This document shows, piece after piece, positions 28,801 through 34,613 of a stretch of DNA of 64,000 nucleotides. Under the pieces are notes generated by a model that was not told the DNA's origin, ran no database searches, and saw only the letters and a program-made list of their open reading frames with translations. Origin of the DNA: Candidatus Cybelea sp. (GTDB taxonomy: Bacteria; Vulcanimicrobiota; Vulcanimicrobiia; Vulcanimicrobiales; Vulcanimicrobiaceae). How positions within the stretch are numbered: the first letter of the stretch is position 1; each line of letters begins with the position of its first letter. Both the position numbers and the translations under genes were made by a program. Location: NCBI GenBank assembly GCA_036489315.1, contig DASXFZ010000055.1:1-64000 (forward strand). The letters run 5' to 3'.

Positions 28801-29607
28801 GGCGGATCGCAGTGCTATGAAAACGACAAGGCCGGGAACGTGTATCCCGATCCGCGCTGCATCCGGCTCAACCCGAACTACAACGGGGTGATCTTAAATC
28901 CGTACTACAAGATGGCGCCGCAGCCGCTGCTCGACCGCAACGGCTGGTATCCCGTCGGCCTGGATTTCGCCTACCTTTCACCCAACGTCGTCAGCGCGAT
29001 CGTCAACTACAAGCACAACAAGTTTGCGATTTCGCCGGCGCTGACGTTCAACGAAGGCCAACCCTACGGCAATCCCGCGGATGTCAACGGTTTGGATCCG
29101 CGTACCTGTGCGCGCAACTCGACCCACATCCCCACTGCGCCGAACAAGTTCCAGGCCGACTACACGACCTGCGGCCTGGCGGCGACCCAGAACGGAACGG
29201 AGCCCGGAATTTTGGCGATTCCGAATCCGCAGACCGGCGTCTTCGACAGCTTTGGCCAGTTCCGGCAGCCGGATCAGCTGAATTTCAGCCTGCAGATGTC
29301 CTATCAAGTCACCCCGCGGGTCAAGGTCAACGCGCTCTTGGCCAATCTGGTCAACGCCTGCTTCGGCGGCTCGTCGGAGCCGTGGACCAAGCAGTATCCG
29401 CCCAACAGTTACACCTGCGGTTACATCGCCAACTACTATTACACTGCGAACTTCTATAACGGCGCCTCGCCCAACGACAAGTTCGCCAACGGGGTGCCGC
29501 TCAATCCCGCCTTTGCGAACTCCTACATACCGGCCTATGCCGATACGAACGCGTTCACACTGCCAAACCCGTTCAACGCCTACTTCTCGGTGAACGTCAC
29601 CCTATAG
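25813..29607 (+). CDS. TonB-dependent receptor with N-terminal carboxypeptidase-regulatory domain
   Basis: The 1264-residue protein has a signal peptide (about 1-27), then a carboxypeptidase-regulatory-like beta-sandwich (about 30-110, [40 protein letters not shown]). A plug domain follows with [19 protein letters not shown] and a very long Tyr/Asn-rich beta barrel ending [11 protein letters not shown]. It would import a nutrient across the outer membrane with TonB-ExbBD energy. ATG 25813 is preferred since the signal peptide follows at once; readings from 25672 lack one. It sits between hutU and hutH, facing both, which suggests uptake of histidine-containing peptides or a related nitrogen source. 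Confidence 0.9.
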
Positions 29608-31131
29608 GCGGCGGCCGATCGCGGCTTCGGCCGCGCCGGCGAACGCGCGGGAGGCAATCAGCTCGCGCGCGGCGGCGATGTCGGGCGCAGGGCTGCGATC
29701 GGCGATAAACGGCGCGATGCGTTCGTGCGTGATCTCATGTGCCGCCGCGGTGCCCCGCCCCGGGTGCAGCGGTTTGCGGAAGTCCGCGGCCGCCATCGCA
29801 CCGAGCAGCTCGCATGCAAGCGCACCCTCGACGTTCTCCAGAACGCGCATCAGATTGTTAGCCGAGGTCATGCCCATGCTGACGTGGTCCTCTTGACCGG
29901 CCGAGGTTGGGATCGAGTCGACGCTCGAGGGCCACGCGTAGCCTTTGTTCTCGTTGACTAGCGCCGCGGCGGTGTACTGCACGATCATCAGGCCCGACTG
30001 CAGCCCGAGACGGTGCGCGAGGAAGAGCGGCAAGCCGCGGTCCTCCGCATTGAGCAGCAGGTAGAGCCGCCGCTCGGCAATCGAGGCCAATTCGGAGATG
30101 GCGATCTTCAGAAGATCCAGCACGATTGCAACCGGCTCGCCGTGAAAGTTGCCGCCCGAGACGAAGTCGCCGTCTTCGGGAAAGACGAGCGGATTGTCGG
30201 TAACCGAGTTGCTTTCGATCTCGGTGACGCGCCGCACGTGAGCGATCGAGTCGCGCACCGCCCCATGCACGACCGGGACGCAGCGAAACGAGTAGGGATC
30301 CTGCACTCGCTCGCACTCGACGTGCGAGTGGACGATCTCCGAATCGGCCAGCAACTCGCGGAGATTGCCCGCAACGCGTTCCTGACCGGGATGGGGCCTC
30401 AGGTCGTTGAGGCGGCGATCGAAGACGCGATCGCTCGCCAGATAGGCTTCCAGCGACATCGCCGCGATCACGTCGGCTGCAGCCGCAAGCCGTTCCGCGC
30501 GCAACACGCCGAGCGCCGCCACCGCGGTCATGACCTGCGTACCGTTGACGAGGGCGAGCCCCTCCTTTGCCCCAAGTGCAATCGGTTCGAGGCCGGCGCG
30601 CTCGAGCGCTACGGCACTTGGCATGCGCTCGCCGCCGTAGTAGCATTCGCCCTCGCCGATCAGCGCGAGCGTCATGTGCGCGAGCGGCGCGAGATCACCG
30701 CTGGCGCCGACCGAACCTTGGCAGGGCACGACTGGCGTAACGCCGCGCGCGAGCATACCAAGGATCAGGTCGAGCGTCTCAAGCTTGACGCCGGAATGAC
30801 CGGCCGAGAGCGAGTTCGCGCGAAGGACGCTCGCAGCGCGCACGATCGGAATCGGCAACGGCTCGCCGGTGCCCGCCGCGTGGCTGCGGACGAGGTTGAG
30901 CTGCAGCTCGGCGGCGTCTTCGGGCGCGACGGCGATGTTCGCAAGCCGGCCGAAGCCGGTCGTTACACCGTAGATGCGATCGCCCGCGGCGAACTTGCGG
31001 TCGACGAAATCGCGGGCGCGCCGCACGCGCTCGCGCGCCGCCGAGGTGATCCCGACGCGCGCCCCGAGCGCCGCCGCCTCAACCGCCTCGAGCGTCAGAT
31101 GGCGCCCGTCGAGCTCTAGAGTTTCGACCAA
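29602..31131 (-). CDS. hutH: Histidine ammonia-lyase
   Basis: The 509-residue enzyme has CQGSVGASGDLAPLAHM with Ala143-Ser144-Gly145, which cyclise to the MIO electrophile, plus YGVTTGFGRLAN and EDHVSMGMTSANNLM. These match HutH, including lengths on both sides of the MIO loop. It removes ammonia from L-histidine to give urocanate. Its 3' end overlaps the convergent receptor stop by 6 bp. Its start lies inside the end of the upstream secreted-protein gene. It is separated from hutU by the receptor gene and read from the same strand as hutU. Confidence 0.96.
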   Translation of the reverse strand: MVETLELDGRHLTLEAVEAAALGARVGITSAARERVRRARDFVDRKFAAGDRIYGVTTGFGRLANIAVAPEDAAELQLNLVRSHAAGTGEPLPIPIVRAASVLRANSLSAGHSGVKLETLDLILGMLARGVTPVVPCQGSVGASGDLAPLAHMTLALIGEGECYYGGERMPSAVALERAGLEPIALGAKEGLALVNGTQVMTAVAALGVLRAERLAAAADVIAAMSLEAYLASDRVFDRRLNDLRPHPGQERVAGNLRELLADSEIVHSHVECERVQDPYSFRCVPVVHGAVRDSIAHVRRVTEIESNSVTDNPLVFPEDGDFVSGGNFHGEPVAIVLDLLKIAISELASIAERRLYLLLNAEDRGLPLFLAHRLGLQSGLMIVQYTAAALVNENKGYAWPSSVDSIPTSAGQEDHVSMGMTSANNLMRVLENVEGALACELLGAMAAADFRKPLHPGRGTAAAHEITHERIAPFIADRSPAPDIAAARELIASRAFAGAAEAAIGRRL

Positions 31132-31634: not shown

Positions 31635-31899
31635 TCTATGTGCATAACGGAAAAAACCTGTGGACAGCTTGTGAATTGCAGGCTGCGACACTTGTCGACC
31701 CAAGCTTGCGCGTGCTACGCTTTTCGAGCTTCGAATCCAATCCGAAGTGCGACGAACGCATCGCTCGCGACCAATGCATTTAGGTGTGAAACGCCGTGAT
31801 GAACGTCGATTCCACTGCAGCGGTCAAACCGCTTGTCCGGCGTCGGTGGGGCTCTCCGACCAGGTAGCCAAACAGGCGAGGCAAGTGCGTGAATGCGTC
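31635..31899. other. Gene-free region leading into the tandem repeats
   Basis: No credible gene is seen. On the + strand the stretch holds two perfect hairpins: AGCGGT-CAA-ACCGCT at 31819-31833 and GTCGG...CCGAC at 31842-31860. GGGCTCTCCGAC near 31849-31860 can instead pair with GTCGGAGCCC at 31898-31907, which overlaps the first terminator-like stem. The alternative pairing looks like an attenuator but is unproven. Confidence 0.35.
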
Positions 31900-32211
31900 G
31901 GAGCCCGTTGAGGCCTCGCTTCAACGGGTTCTGTTTTTTTCTCGCTTCGTCACCCGTTGGGCCGGGTTATGCCCGGACGACTCGGACGCTCGTCGTGGCG
32001 CATCCGGCGCCACTCCTGCTCGCGCGCTCGTCCGCTCCGGCATCCGTGCCTGCGCGAACTCGTCTCGACGCCTCGCTGTCCGGGCATAACCCGGCCCAAC
32101 TCACCATCAAGATAAAAGGGCCCGTCGGTGTGGGGCTAGCAGGTTCCGAAGCACATTCGGCGCGTGCTCTCGCTTCTTGGCGACCTGGTCATCGCGGCTT
32201 GCGTGGAGGTT
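31900..32211. repeat. Tandem REPIN-like element, unit 1
   Basis: The unit starts at GGAGCCCGTTGAGGCC. It holds a terminator-like hairpin, then a pair of perfect 23-bp inverted arms at 31956-31978 and 32078-32100 (left arm begins GTTGGGCCGGGTTATG). Each arm has an internal CCGGG-TTATG-CCCGG hairpin, and the 99-bp spacer contains GGCGC-ATCCG-GCGCC. The tail runs to GCGTGGAGGTT. Almost the whole unit recurs 319 bp downstream. Paired hairpin arms around a ~0.1-kb spacer is REPIN/BIME architecture; no RAYT transposase is in this window. Confidence 0.75.
31904..31940 (+). terminator. Terminator-like hairpin of repeat unit 1
   Basis: CCCGTTGA (31904-31911) pairs with TCAACGGG, with a 9-base loop, and is followed by TTCTGTTTTTTT. 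This is the form of a rho-independent terminator for + strand transcripts. No obvious gene upstream needs it, so it may be part of the repeat itself. Confidence 0.6.
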
Positions 32212-32218
32212 TGTTGTT

Positions 32219-32556
32219 GGAGCCCGTTGAGGCCTCGCTTCAACGGGTTCTGTTTTTTTCTCGCTTCGTTACCCGTTGGGCCGGGTTATGCCCGGACGAC
32301 TCGGACGCTCGTCGCGGCGCATCCGGCGCCACTCCTGCTCGCGCGCTCGTCCGCTCCGGCATCCGTGCGTGCCTGCGCGAACTCGTCTCGACGCCTCCCT
32401 GTCCGGGCATAACCCGGCCCAACTCACCATCAGGATAAAAAGATCCGTCGGTTTGGGATCCCGGCGGCCTCGAAGTTTCGGCTAGCAGGTTCCGAAGCAC
32501 ATCTGCGCGTGCTCTCGCTTCTTGGCGAACTGGTCATCGCGGCTTGCGTGGAGGTT
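32219..32556. repeat. Tandem REPIN-like element, unit 2
   Basis: This near copy of unit 1 has the same terminator-like hairpin and the same 23-bp arms, at 32275-32297 and 32401-32423. Compared with unit 1 it carries a 4-bp insertion (GTGC) in the spacer and about 22 extra bases before the shared GCTAGCAGGTTCCGAAGCAC tail. The arms have not diverged at all, while the tail has, so the arms appear to be under constraint or recently copied. Confidence 0.75.
32223..32259 (+). terminator. Terminator-like hairpin of repeat unit 2
   Basis: Same stem (CCCGTTGA with TCAACGGG) and same T-run (seven T after TTCTG) as in unit 1. Confidence 0.6.
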
Positions 32557-32577: not shown

Positions 32578-33633
32578 TTATGGGGCGATGCTGACTGATT
32601 CGCCGAAGGGTTGGGTTGGGGGCGATTGCAGCCTGCTAAGCGGGCCGCCGCCGGCCGGATAGTGCCAGAGGTTGAAAAGGCTAAGGCACTGCAAGTTGCC
32701 GCCGACGATGGCGGTGCCCTGGGTTTGATTGAGCGGCGTGTTCTTGGCGCCGACGACGAAGGGCTGCGGAACGCGCACGCCGCCGTCGCAGGAGGCATCC
32801 TTCAGAACGGTCGAGCCCGCTTTCTGAAGATTGCCCGACTGCTCTTCGGTTACTTGGTAGACCGCGGTGATCGTCTGGCCGCCGTAATACTGATCGGTAA
32901 GGATGAGGTGCGTGCCATCCCACATGACACCGCCTCCCAGGCCGATTGTAAAGTTCAGCAGTTTGACGGGACCGCGAAGCGTCGTTCCGTCGTGCTCGAG
33001 CTCGCAGACGGTCACGATCGACGCGTTGCTCCCCTCCACGTAGAGGTTGCCTTTCTTGCCGTAGCCGGGCGACCACATATCCTCATCGCAAGCCGAGCTT
33101 TTGAAGACGTTCGCGCTGCCCGCGGCCTTTTTGTAGATCTGCAGCTCGGCAGGGAGGTCGAGGTTGGCGACGGCGAGGTTTCCGGTCGTCGGATCGACCG
33201 AGCATCCCGCGGAGTGGCCGGCTCCATGTAGGGTTTTCAGCCGGGTGACACCGCCATGGGCGAACTCTACGACCGCCGTGGAATCGAGATTGGTGATCCA
33301 GACGTTGCCGCCCTTATCCACACACTGGCCGTAAGGCTTGGCGAAACCCGTCAGCCGTCCGACCAGCGCGCGGGTTCTGTAGTTGTAAATGAAGACGTCG
33401 TCGGTTCCCCAGTCGGAGACGTAGAGCAGTTCCTTTACCTTCGCCGCGTCGGGCAACATCCACGAATGGCCGCGATCGGGATGGCTCGGCGCCGGCTGCG
33501 TCAAGAGCATCGCGGTCAGCCGTGCCGACGAGAGAGCCGTCAAGCCGCTCTCCTGGCCGCCCGGCAGCGCCTGTGCGCAGGCTGTAAGAAGGGCGGCGCC
33601 GATCGCGCCAATTGCAAATACCCAGCGGCTCAT
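32578..33633 (-). CDS. Lipoprotein with NHL/SMP-30-like beta-propeller
   Basis: The 351-residue product has a lipobox LLTAC (Cys19). A repeat-rich body follows with LLYVSDWGTDDVFIYNY, GQCVDKGGNVWITN, VVEFAHGGVTRLKTL and DPTTGNLAVANLDL, the blades of a six-bladed propeller like SMP-30/virginiamycin-B-lyase folds. It would sit on the membrane facing the periplasm or outside. No catalytic metal site can be pinned. A paralogue with the same order of motifs lies at 53845-54924. It overlaps the WYL regulator gene upstream (ATGA). Confidence 0.8.
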   Translation of the reverse strand: MSRWVFAIGAIGAALLTACAQALPGGQESGLTALSSARLTAMLLTQPAPSHPDRGHSWMLPDAAKVKELLYVSDWGTDDVFIYNYRTRALVGRLTGFAKPYGQCVDKGGNVWITNLDSTAVVEFAHGGVTRLKTLHGAGHSAGCSVDPTTGNLAVANLDLPAELQIYKKAAGSANVFKSSACDEDMWSPGYGKKGNLYVEGSNASIVTVCELEHDGTTLRGPVKLLNFTIGLGGGVMWDGTHLILTDQYYGGQTITAVYQVTEEQSGNLQKAGSTVLKDASCDGGVRVPQPFVVGAKNTPLNQTQGTAIVGGNLQCLSLFNLWHYPAGGGPLSRLQSPPTQPFGESVSIAP

Positions 33634-34613
33634 TGGGCGTACTTCTTCGCTACTTCTTGGGCCAACGCTGCAATGCGCGCGCGCACGGCCTCGGGCGCGA
33701 CCACCTCTGCCTGCGCTCCCCAGCCGAGAACCCAGCGGACCAGCTCGTCGACGTCGGCAACGCGATACGTGATCTCAGCCGTTCCGTCGCGCCGCTGTGC
33801 GATCCTGCGATCGGCAACGATGTGCGCCGCCGCCGCAGCCTTGGCGACGCGCGGCGCGAACCGGACGCGGACGTCGGTCGTCTCGTCGCTGTGAAGCACT
33901 CCGCTGATCGACGCCGCCGCGTAGGCCTCCACGTTGAAGCCGTTCGGGCGCACGAACGTCTTTGCGAGCACTCGCGGCTCGCTGACGCTGTCCACCGCGA
34001 AGGTGCGCTTGTCGTTGCGAGTGTGATCGTGCGCCACACAATAGACTCGCCCGGCGTTGATGATGAAGCCGTACGGGTCGACCGTGCGCGAGCTGCTGCG
34101 TCCCTCCTTATCGCGATATTTGAAGCGAACGCTCCGTGACGAGCGCTCTGCCGACGAGAGCAATGCGAAGGCACGCTCGCCGCGTTTGTCGAGCGAGACT
34201 TCGGAGAGACGAAAGGCGACGGGCGTAGCCGCGTCGACGCGGTCCCGCGCGCCGCGTCCCGCGCTTCCGACGAGCTTTTCCGCGACGTCGTCGATCGAGG
34301 CACCGATCGTGCCGCCGATGCTTGCGCCCAACGACCGCAGCGCGACCAAGCCGAACAGCTCGCCGTTGCTGAGATCGAGCCGCTTGAGACTGTAGCCTTG
34401 GGCGAACCGGTAGACGTTTGCCGCGCGATCGAAGTAGAGCGGGAAGCCGGCGTTGGTAAGGATCGCAAGATAGCGCCGCAGGCTGCGCGTGCTGGGCGCG
34501 CGGCCGCTCTCGGCAATCTTCTCTTTGAGCGCTTCGAACGAGTGACGGCCCTGATCGATCGCATTGAGCAAGCGCACCAGCAGAATGACCTTCGATTCGC
34601 CCTCAGCGCTCAT
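33630..34613 (-). CDS. WYL-domain transcriptional regulator
   Basis: The 327-residue protein has an N-terminal winged helix (RLLNAIDQGRHSFEALKEKI, SRRSLRRYL-like recognition region). The middle and C-terminal WYL domain has VRFKYRDKEGRSSSRTVDPYGFIINAGRVYCVAHDH, where Tyr/Leu in the 'GRVYCVAH' strand correspond to the WYL-type ligand strand. A WCX-like tail ends the chain. Such YafY-type proteins sense nucleic acids or small ligands and repress nearby genes. It lies between a surface protein gene and the propeller lipoprotein gene with ATGA overlaps at both ends, so it probably governs this three-gene operon. Confidence 0.85.
   Translation of the reverse strand: MSAEGESKVILLVRLLNAIDQGRHSFEALKEKIAESGRAPSTRSLRRYLAILTNAGFPLYFDRAANVYRFAQGYSLKRLDLSNGELFGLVALRSLGASIGGTIGASIDDVAEKLVGSAGRGARDRVDAATPVAFRLSEVSLDKRGERAFALLSSAERSSRSVRFKYRDKEGRSSSRTVDPYGFIINAGRVYCVAHDHTRNDKRTFAVDSVSEPRVLAKTFVRPNGFNVEAYAAASISGVLHSDETTDVRVRFAPRVAKAAAAAHIVADRRIAQRRDGTAEITYRVADVDELVRWVLGWGAQAEVVAPEAVRARIAALAQEVAKKYAQ

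Follow-up and report, generated by a model that had tools for sequence, protein, structure and literature searches.

In the window (the whole stretch of 64,000 nucleotides of Candidatus Cybelea sp. DNA analysed here), a small mobile palindrome is present in two tandem copies, each consisting of a core of about 100 nt between long, perfectly paired arms. For the most part, the arms are not conserved with the element: the core is dispersed, is present or absent at orthologous sites, is decoupled from its arms, and lies between arms whose mismatches are strand-biased. The reading favoured here, with a probability of roughly 0.55, is that a non-autonomous mobile hairpin core is inserted and that polymerase template switching adds an inverted copy of the adjoining DNA. 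The carriers are soil bacteria of the group Eremiobacterota, and a literature search found no description of such elements.

The tandem units of the window and the dispersed core

The two units (Table 1) are spaced 319 bp start to start, and unit 2, with a tail longer than that of unit 1, measures 341 bp in total. The preliminary description of two tandem units of ~0.32 kb, with 23-bp inverted arms that are themselves hairpins and are unchanged between copies, and with a spacer of ~0.1 kb, is borne out: the arms are 100% complementary and the same in both units, each contains CCGGG-TTATG-CCCGG, and the cores between them measure 99 nt (element 1) and 103 nt (element 2). The arm pattern has four matches in the window, which is far above chance (at least four in 0 of 100 shuffles), and folding of the unit gives z = -5.1. 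The hairpin with a T-run that had been counted as a part of each unit is present, but it does not belong to the element; it is the 3' end of a conserved upstream sRNA-like gene, caught in the 319-bp tandem duplication. This gene (~125 nt) has a covarying fold and is conserved across most relatives in the genus and also seen in three other genera of the family (G019, G026, and G030), and the Rfam covariance models matched neither the window element nor the gene. A terminator role for the element, earlier suggested as a transcription stop cassette, was rejected, as the terminator is that of the neighbouring sRNA and a T-run stands beside the arms in 0 of 77 element copies on either strand.

Table 1. 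Features of the window at and around the two elements
Feature	Position	Strand	Remark
Aromatic amino acid lyase gene	29602-31131	-	
Conserved sRNA-like gene	31811-31938	+	Terminator 31900-31938 at its end; neighbour, outside the element
Tandem duplication unit 1	31897-32215	.	sRNA terminator + element 1 + tail
Left arm, element 1 (GTTGGGCCGGGTTATGCCCGGAC)	31956-31978	+	
Core, element 1	31979-32077	+	Drawn core-plus, inferred folding strand minus; covariance model R1 match 31968-32088, E 1.5e-16
Core hairpin 1, element 1	31995-32013	+	Loop TCC (minus strand: GGA); stem covariation between copies
Core hairpin 2, element 1	32039-32050	+	Loop ATCC (minus strand: GGAT)
Right arm, element 1	32078-32100	+	Exact reverse complement of left arm
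Tandem duplication unit 2	32216-32556	.	Copied terminator + element 2 + tail
Left arm, element 2	32275-32297	+	
Core, element 2	32298-32400	+	R1 match 32287-32411, E 8.7e-13
Right arm, element 2	32401-32423	+	
ORF	32578-33633	-	3' end toward element; no Pfam match
WYL-domain gene	33630-34613	-	

Genome searches with the window arm and with the whole ~0.32-kb unit, the two probes that had been proposed, match nowhere beyond the window locus; the core, however, is dispersed. This was recognised because the copies in relatives, which are flanked by other inverted arms, showed that the core and not the arm recurs, and the repeated entity of the genome is thus the ~100-nt core, neither the arm nor the 0.32-kb unit. 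With a covariance model of the core, the genome of the window contains 18 copies at E < 1e-8, two of which are cut by contig ends; at position 1 of contigs C13 and C50 of G000, the contig end lies inside an element copy, and copy numbers from the assemblies are therefore lower bounds. Copies were detected in 36 of 60 relatives, at 1-20 per genome across the class Eremiobacteria, with all three class-level families (f1, f2, and f3) positive, and in 0 of 5 genomes outside the class; the genomes are public assemblies, mostly metagenomic, and the counts take related copies as independent. The named relatives with copies are Candidatus Eremiobacterota MAGs. Matches to a core pattern outside Eremiobacterota were dismissed as chance, their arm scores never exceeding 11.

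Within the core are a covarying hairpin 1 (e.g., AATCGTCCATGATT and GCGCGTCCATGCGC), the conserved sequence GCTCCTGCT, and a second hairpin (hairpin 2), of which one subfamily has a long form; the short inner ends of the core pair with each other. The short cores of L159 and L160 have a single hairpin. An attC-like reading of GTTGGGC...GCCCAAC was rejected, the order being inverse and the motif absent from other copies. Paired elements in inverted or mixed orientation occupy a single intergenic region in some cases (G007:C69:7916 and 8092; L048; L086), and a further palindromic repeat, TGTCATCCTGAGC...GTCGAAGGA, distinct from the element and likewise dispersed, is found at L024, L057, and L058 (G010 and G013).

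Insertion sites and locus-specific arms

Orthologous sites whose flanks are 92-94% identical lack the element in some relatives, and for copies of the window's own genome the corresponding site is empty in 2-6 tested relatives each; this demonstrates that the element inserts. Arms are held in common at orthologous sites in separate assemblies (e.g., L145/L152 and L181/L182), and copies are also found in genomes of five and nine contigs, both of which argue against an assembly artefact. Runs of NN lie within the palindromes of L043, L157, L168, and L177 in the G003 and G009 assemblies.

The copies lie 3' of genes; with genes called by a simple codon model, 24 are co-directional in the ++ arrangement and 13 in the -- arrangement, 19 are convergent, and 2 of 58 are divergent. 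Some sites are used recurrently by elements with differing cores and arms, including atpG-atpD, scpB-rluB, and the end of a sigma-factor gene (names taken from reading the translations rather than from a family search). At atpG-atpD, the outer arms are similar, and the core in G003, G014, and G016 is reversed relative to that in G009, with cores also of different subfamilies.

In 79 aligned copies, the median arm measures 25 bp, and the perfectly paired run reaches at least 20 in 29 of the 79 and at least 30 in nine, with a maximum of 46, against a maximum of 10 at control places in the same loci. The arms differ at every locus in these 79 copies, and cores that are 97-99% identical carry unrelated outer arms; for example, L330, L332, and L335 in the window's own genome have a common core and arms that are different right up to the core. 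Arms are nevertheless shared within some groups, namely L053/54/57/58 (G013), the AGGAACCTCTGATTAATCCGATGT group (G009/G014), and several f2 copies, indicating that a part of the arm can travel with the core. Local rearrangement is seen in the right flanks of L328 and L330, which show a core-deleted partial copy and a tandemly duplicated stretch of arm and coding sequence.

These observations bear on two established kinds of repeat. REPINs consist of two conserved REP sequences and are associated with a RAYT transposase. The preliminary description placed the element in an undescribed REPIN family of this lineage, of which the undescribed, dispersed, extragenic, and hairpin-forming family stands and the REPIN identity does not. 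Mobilisation of a REPIN/BIME by a RAYT (Y1) transposase would fit short, extragenic, dispersed hairpins that are depleted between divergent genes (2/58), and it is highly improbable given arms that are unconserved between copies, a window arm unique in its genome, only ~18 copies, and the Y1/RAYT profile PF01797, which has no match in the window's own genome or in 12 further genomes of the same genus (0/13), although the model does match control genomes. That the element is a MITE bounded by long terminal inverted repeats and mobilised in trans by a DD(E/D) transposase is very improbable in a similar way: non-coding elements with inverted-repeat flanks and polymorphic insertion sites would be expected of a MITE, whereas near-identical cores without common arms would not, and a target-site duplication of at least 4 bp was found in 1 of 77 copies, with a control rate of 1.6%.

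Host-derived arms, mismatch bias, and the folded strand

At the queD-queE locus (L145), the first bases of queE, ATGCTTCAACTAGCTG, serve as the right arm and are repeated in inverted form as the left arm; this sequence has a single occurrence in three element-free relatives. Against a null formed by the arms of other loci, the host-arm scores are 14-16 at L145 (null maximum 9), 21 at L123, at the end of the sigma-factor gene (null maximum 10), and 11 at L044, the G016:C196 locus (null maximum 7). The 50-bp arm that G003 carries at the sigma-factor locus corresponds to native sequence in the element-free G016; similarly, in G016:C196 the outer arm is formed by the neighbouring gene's native end, and G003:C41 contains a 21-nt inverted copy of native sequence, with the core lost in an NN gap. 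A host-derived arm is clear at 3 of 19 tested loci (L145, L123, and L044) and weak at a fourth (L146); elsewhere the outcome was negative or the empty site of little use, since most such sites do not reach arm length or have diverged too far. Own-genome copies were left out of this test, the intergenic DNA of the relatives being too short or diverged. At some loci only, therefore, one arm is shown by these sequence comparisons to be pre-existing host DNA, and the other appears to be a new inverted copy, with the side of the native arm relative to the core orientation varying between loci. At L049 and L147, neither arm is present in close relatives, and arms can thus also be carried in.

The core may alternatively insert into long palindromes that already exist, such as terminator hairpins, so that the arms would be the old palindrome. 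Two empty sites with a short palindrome (G003, TAGGAGCCTGCAGGCTCCTA; G016, CCGCTGCAGCAGCGG) and the recurrent hot spots are consistent with this, but the empty-site palindromes measure 7-10 bp against arms of 36-50 bp, the queD-queE empty sites of the three relatives have no palindrome, and T-runs do not accompany the arms, which makes such an origin improbable.

The mismatches within the arms, read in the orientation of the core, are mostly A.C (79, against 17 G.T and 37 others; 38 vs. 7 loci, p = 3e-6). The bias is seen both where genes run in the direction of the core (20:7) and where they run opposite to it (20:3) and is therefore linked to the core rather than to host transcription; family f2 (24:10) and the window's own genome (16:4, loci partly overlapping) show it as well. 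Seen on the opposite strand, the mismatches are G.T/G.U; either wobble is tolerated in this strand when it folds, or a polymerase made G.T errors there in copying one arm from the other. The same minus strand is rich in hairpins with GGA in the loop, at 1.84 per core compared with 0.57 in shuffles (maximum 0.85) and 0.29 on the plus strand.

The elements may instead be functional structured RNAs, possibly GGA-loop decoys or 3'-UTR sites that bind CsrA/RsmA, with selection on the minus-core RNA keeping the arms paired. Such selection would be in line with the enriched GGA loops, with core stems that covary, and with arm mismatches that would be G.U on the GGA-loop strand; moreover, a CsrA gene is present in 17 of 21 genomes, and its presence is concordant with that of the element in 19 of 21 (16/1/1/3, Fisher p 0.01, phylogeny uncontrolled). 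However, the co-directional contexts favour the other strand (24 vs. 13), leaving the minus-core strand antisense at many loci, the mismatch bias is independent of transcription direction, and G.U intermediates are nearly absent from the core stems. Selection also cannot yield arms built of the sequence of a neighbouring gene. RNA function as the source of the paired arms is accordingly considered unlikely, and binding of CsrA to the folded, GGA-looped strand, as a rival or additional role, may be taken as a post hoc lead.

Template switching and related systems

Template switching is proposed since it explains why the arms are perfect and locus-specific, why some are host-derived, and why the mismatches favour one strand; it probably also explains the two core orientations at atpG-atpD. 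In this mechanism, a core of ~60-120 nt with one or two hairpins, and with GGA loops on the folded strand, would be inserted downstream of genes, presumably by a mobilising enzyme, and template switching would act at or soon after insertion. The nascent strand would fold back upon the short inner stem of the core, copy the flank as its reverse complement, and return to the template, leaving a long, perfect, and locus-specific stem. Later switching could keep the arms identical, lengthen them, and flip the core, and new copies may bring part of the arms of their donor. Elsewhere, template switching makes inverted copies, homogenises arms, and inverts spacers (PMC8794818; PMC8604942). A stronger and more tentative version, which is possible though somewhat doubtful, is that the act of insertion places an inverted duplicate of the target beside the conserved hairpin core, so that the stem would be built from host, even protein-coding, DNA, and the elements would form a new class of bacterial mobile DNA. 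A retroelement (group II intron, retron, or DGR) was rejected as a candidate, the reverse transcriptase profile PF00078 being absent in 20 of 21 genomes, including that of the window.

Each of the readings as REPIN, MITE, terminator, or retroelement lacks a defining feature, and the element behaves as a small mobile palindrome that belongs to none of the families tested. We know of no repeat family that pairs an arm of host DNA with a new inverted copy, and of no enzyme for the mitochondrial double-hairpin elements (RHE). In the excerpted account of the latter (PMC2800124), these are likewise mobile short hairpin elements, and that excerpt reports no host-derived locus-specific arms, whereas the elements here reside in bacterial chromosomes. 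REPINs/BIMEs (PMC3116915) are also short, extragenic, non-coding mobile hairpins of bacteria in many copies, and the elements here differ in having locus-unique arms, fewer copies, no RAYT, and a host-derived arm at some loci. Similarly, MITEs, Correia (NEMIS), and ERIC-type repeats are small, non-autonomous, dispersed palindromes, but the present elements lack conserved terminal inverted repeats and target-site duplication. Quasipalindrome template-switch mutations resemble them in their inverted nearby copies, arm homogenisation, and spacer inversion (PMC8794818; PMC8604942), yet those events are sporadic and short-armed, in contrast to a conserved dispersed core with 20-50-bp arms at many loci. 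CsrB/RsmZ-type RNAs share GGA in hairpin loops, here on the inferred folded strand, whereas the elements described here are dispersed, mobile, and set inside long locus-specific stems.

The origin, spread, and perfect pairing of the small palindromes that are common in bacteria are an old question, which becomes directly testable here because sites with and without the element, perfect arms that are unrelated although their cores are nearly identical, and gene-derived arms occur together. The elements suggest that stems can be written at the target rather than inherited, and if the GGA-loop strand is transcribed, a mobile repeat would be linked to a global RNA regulator.
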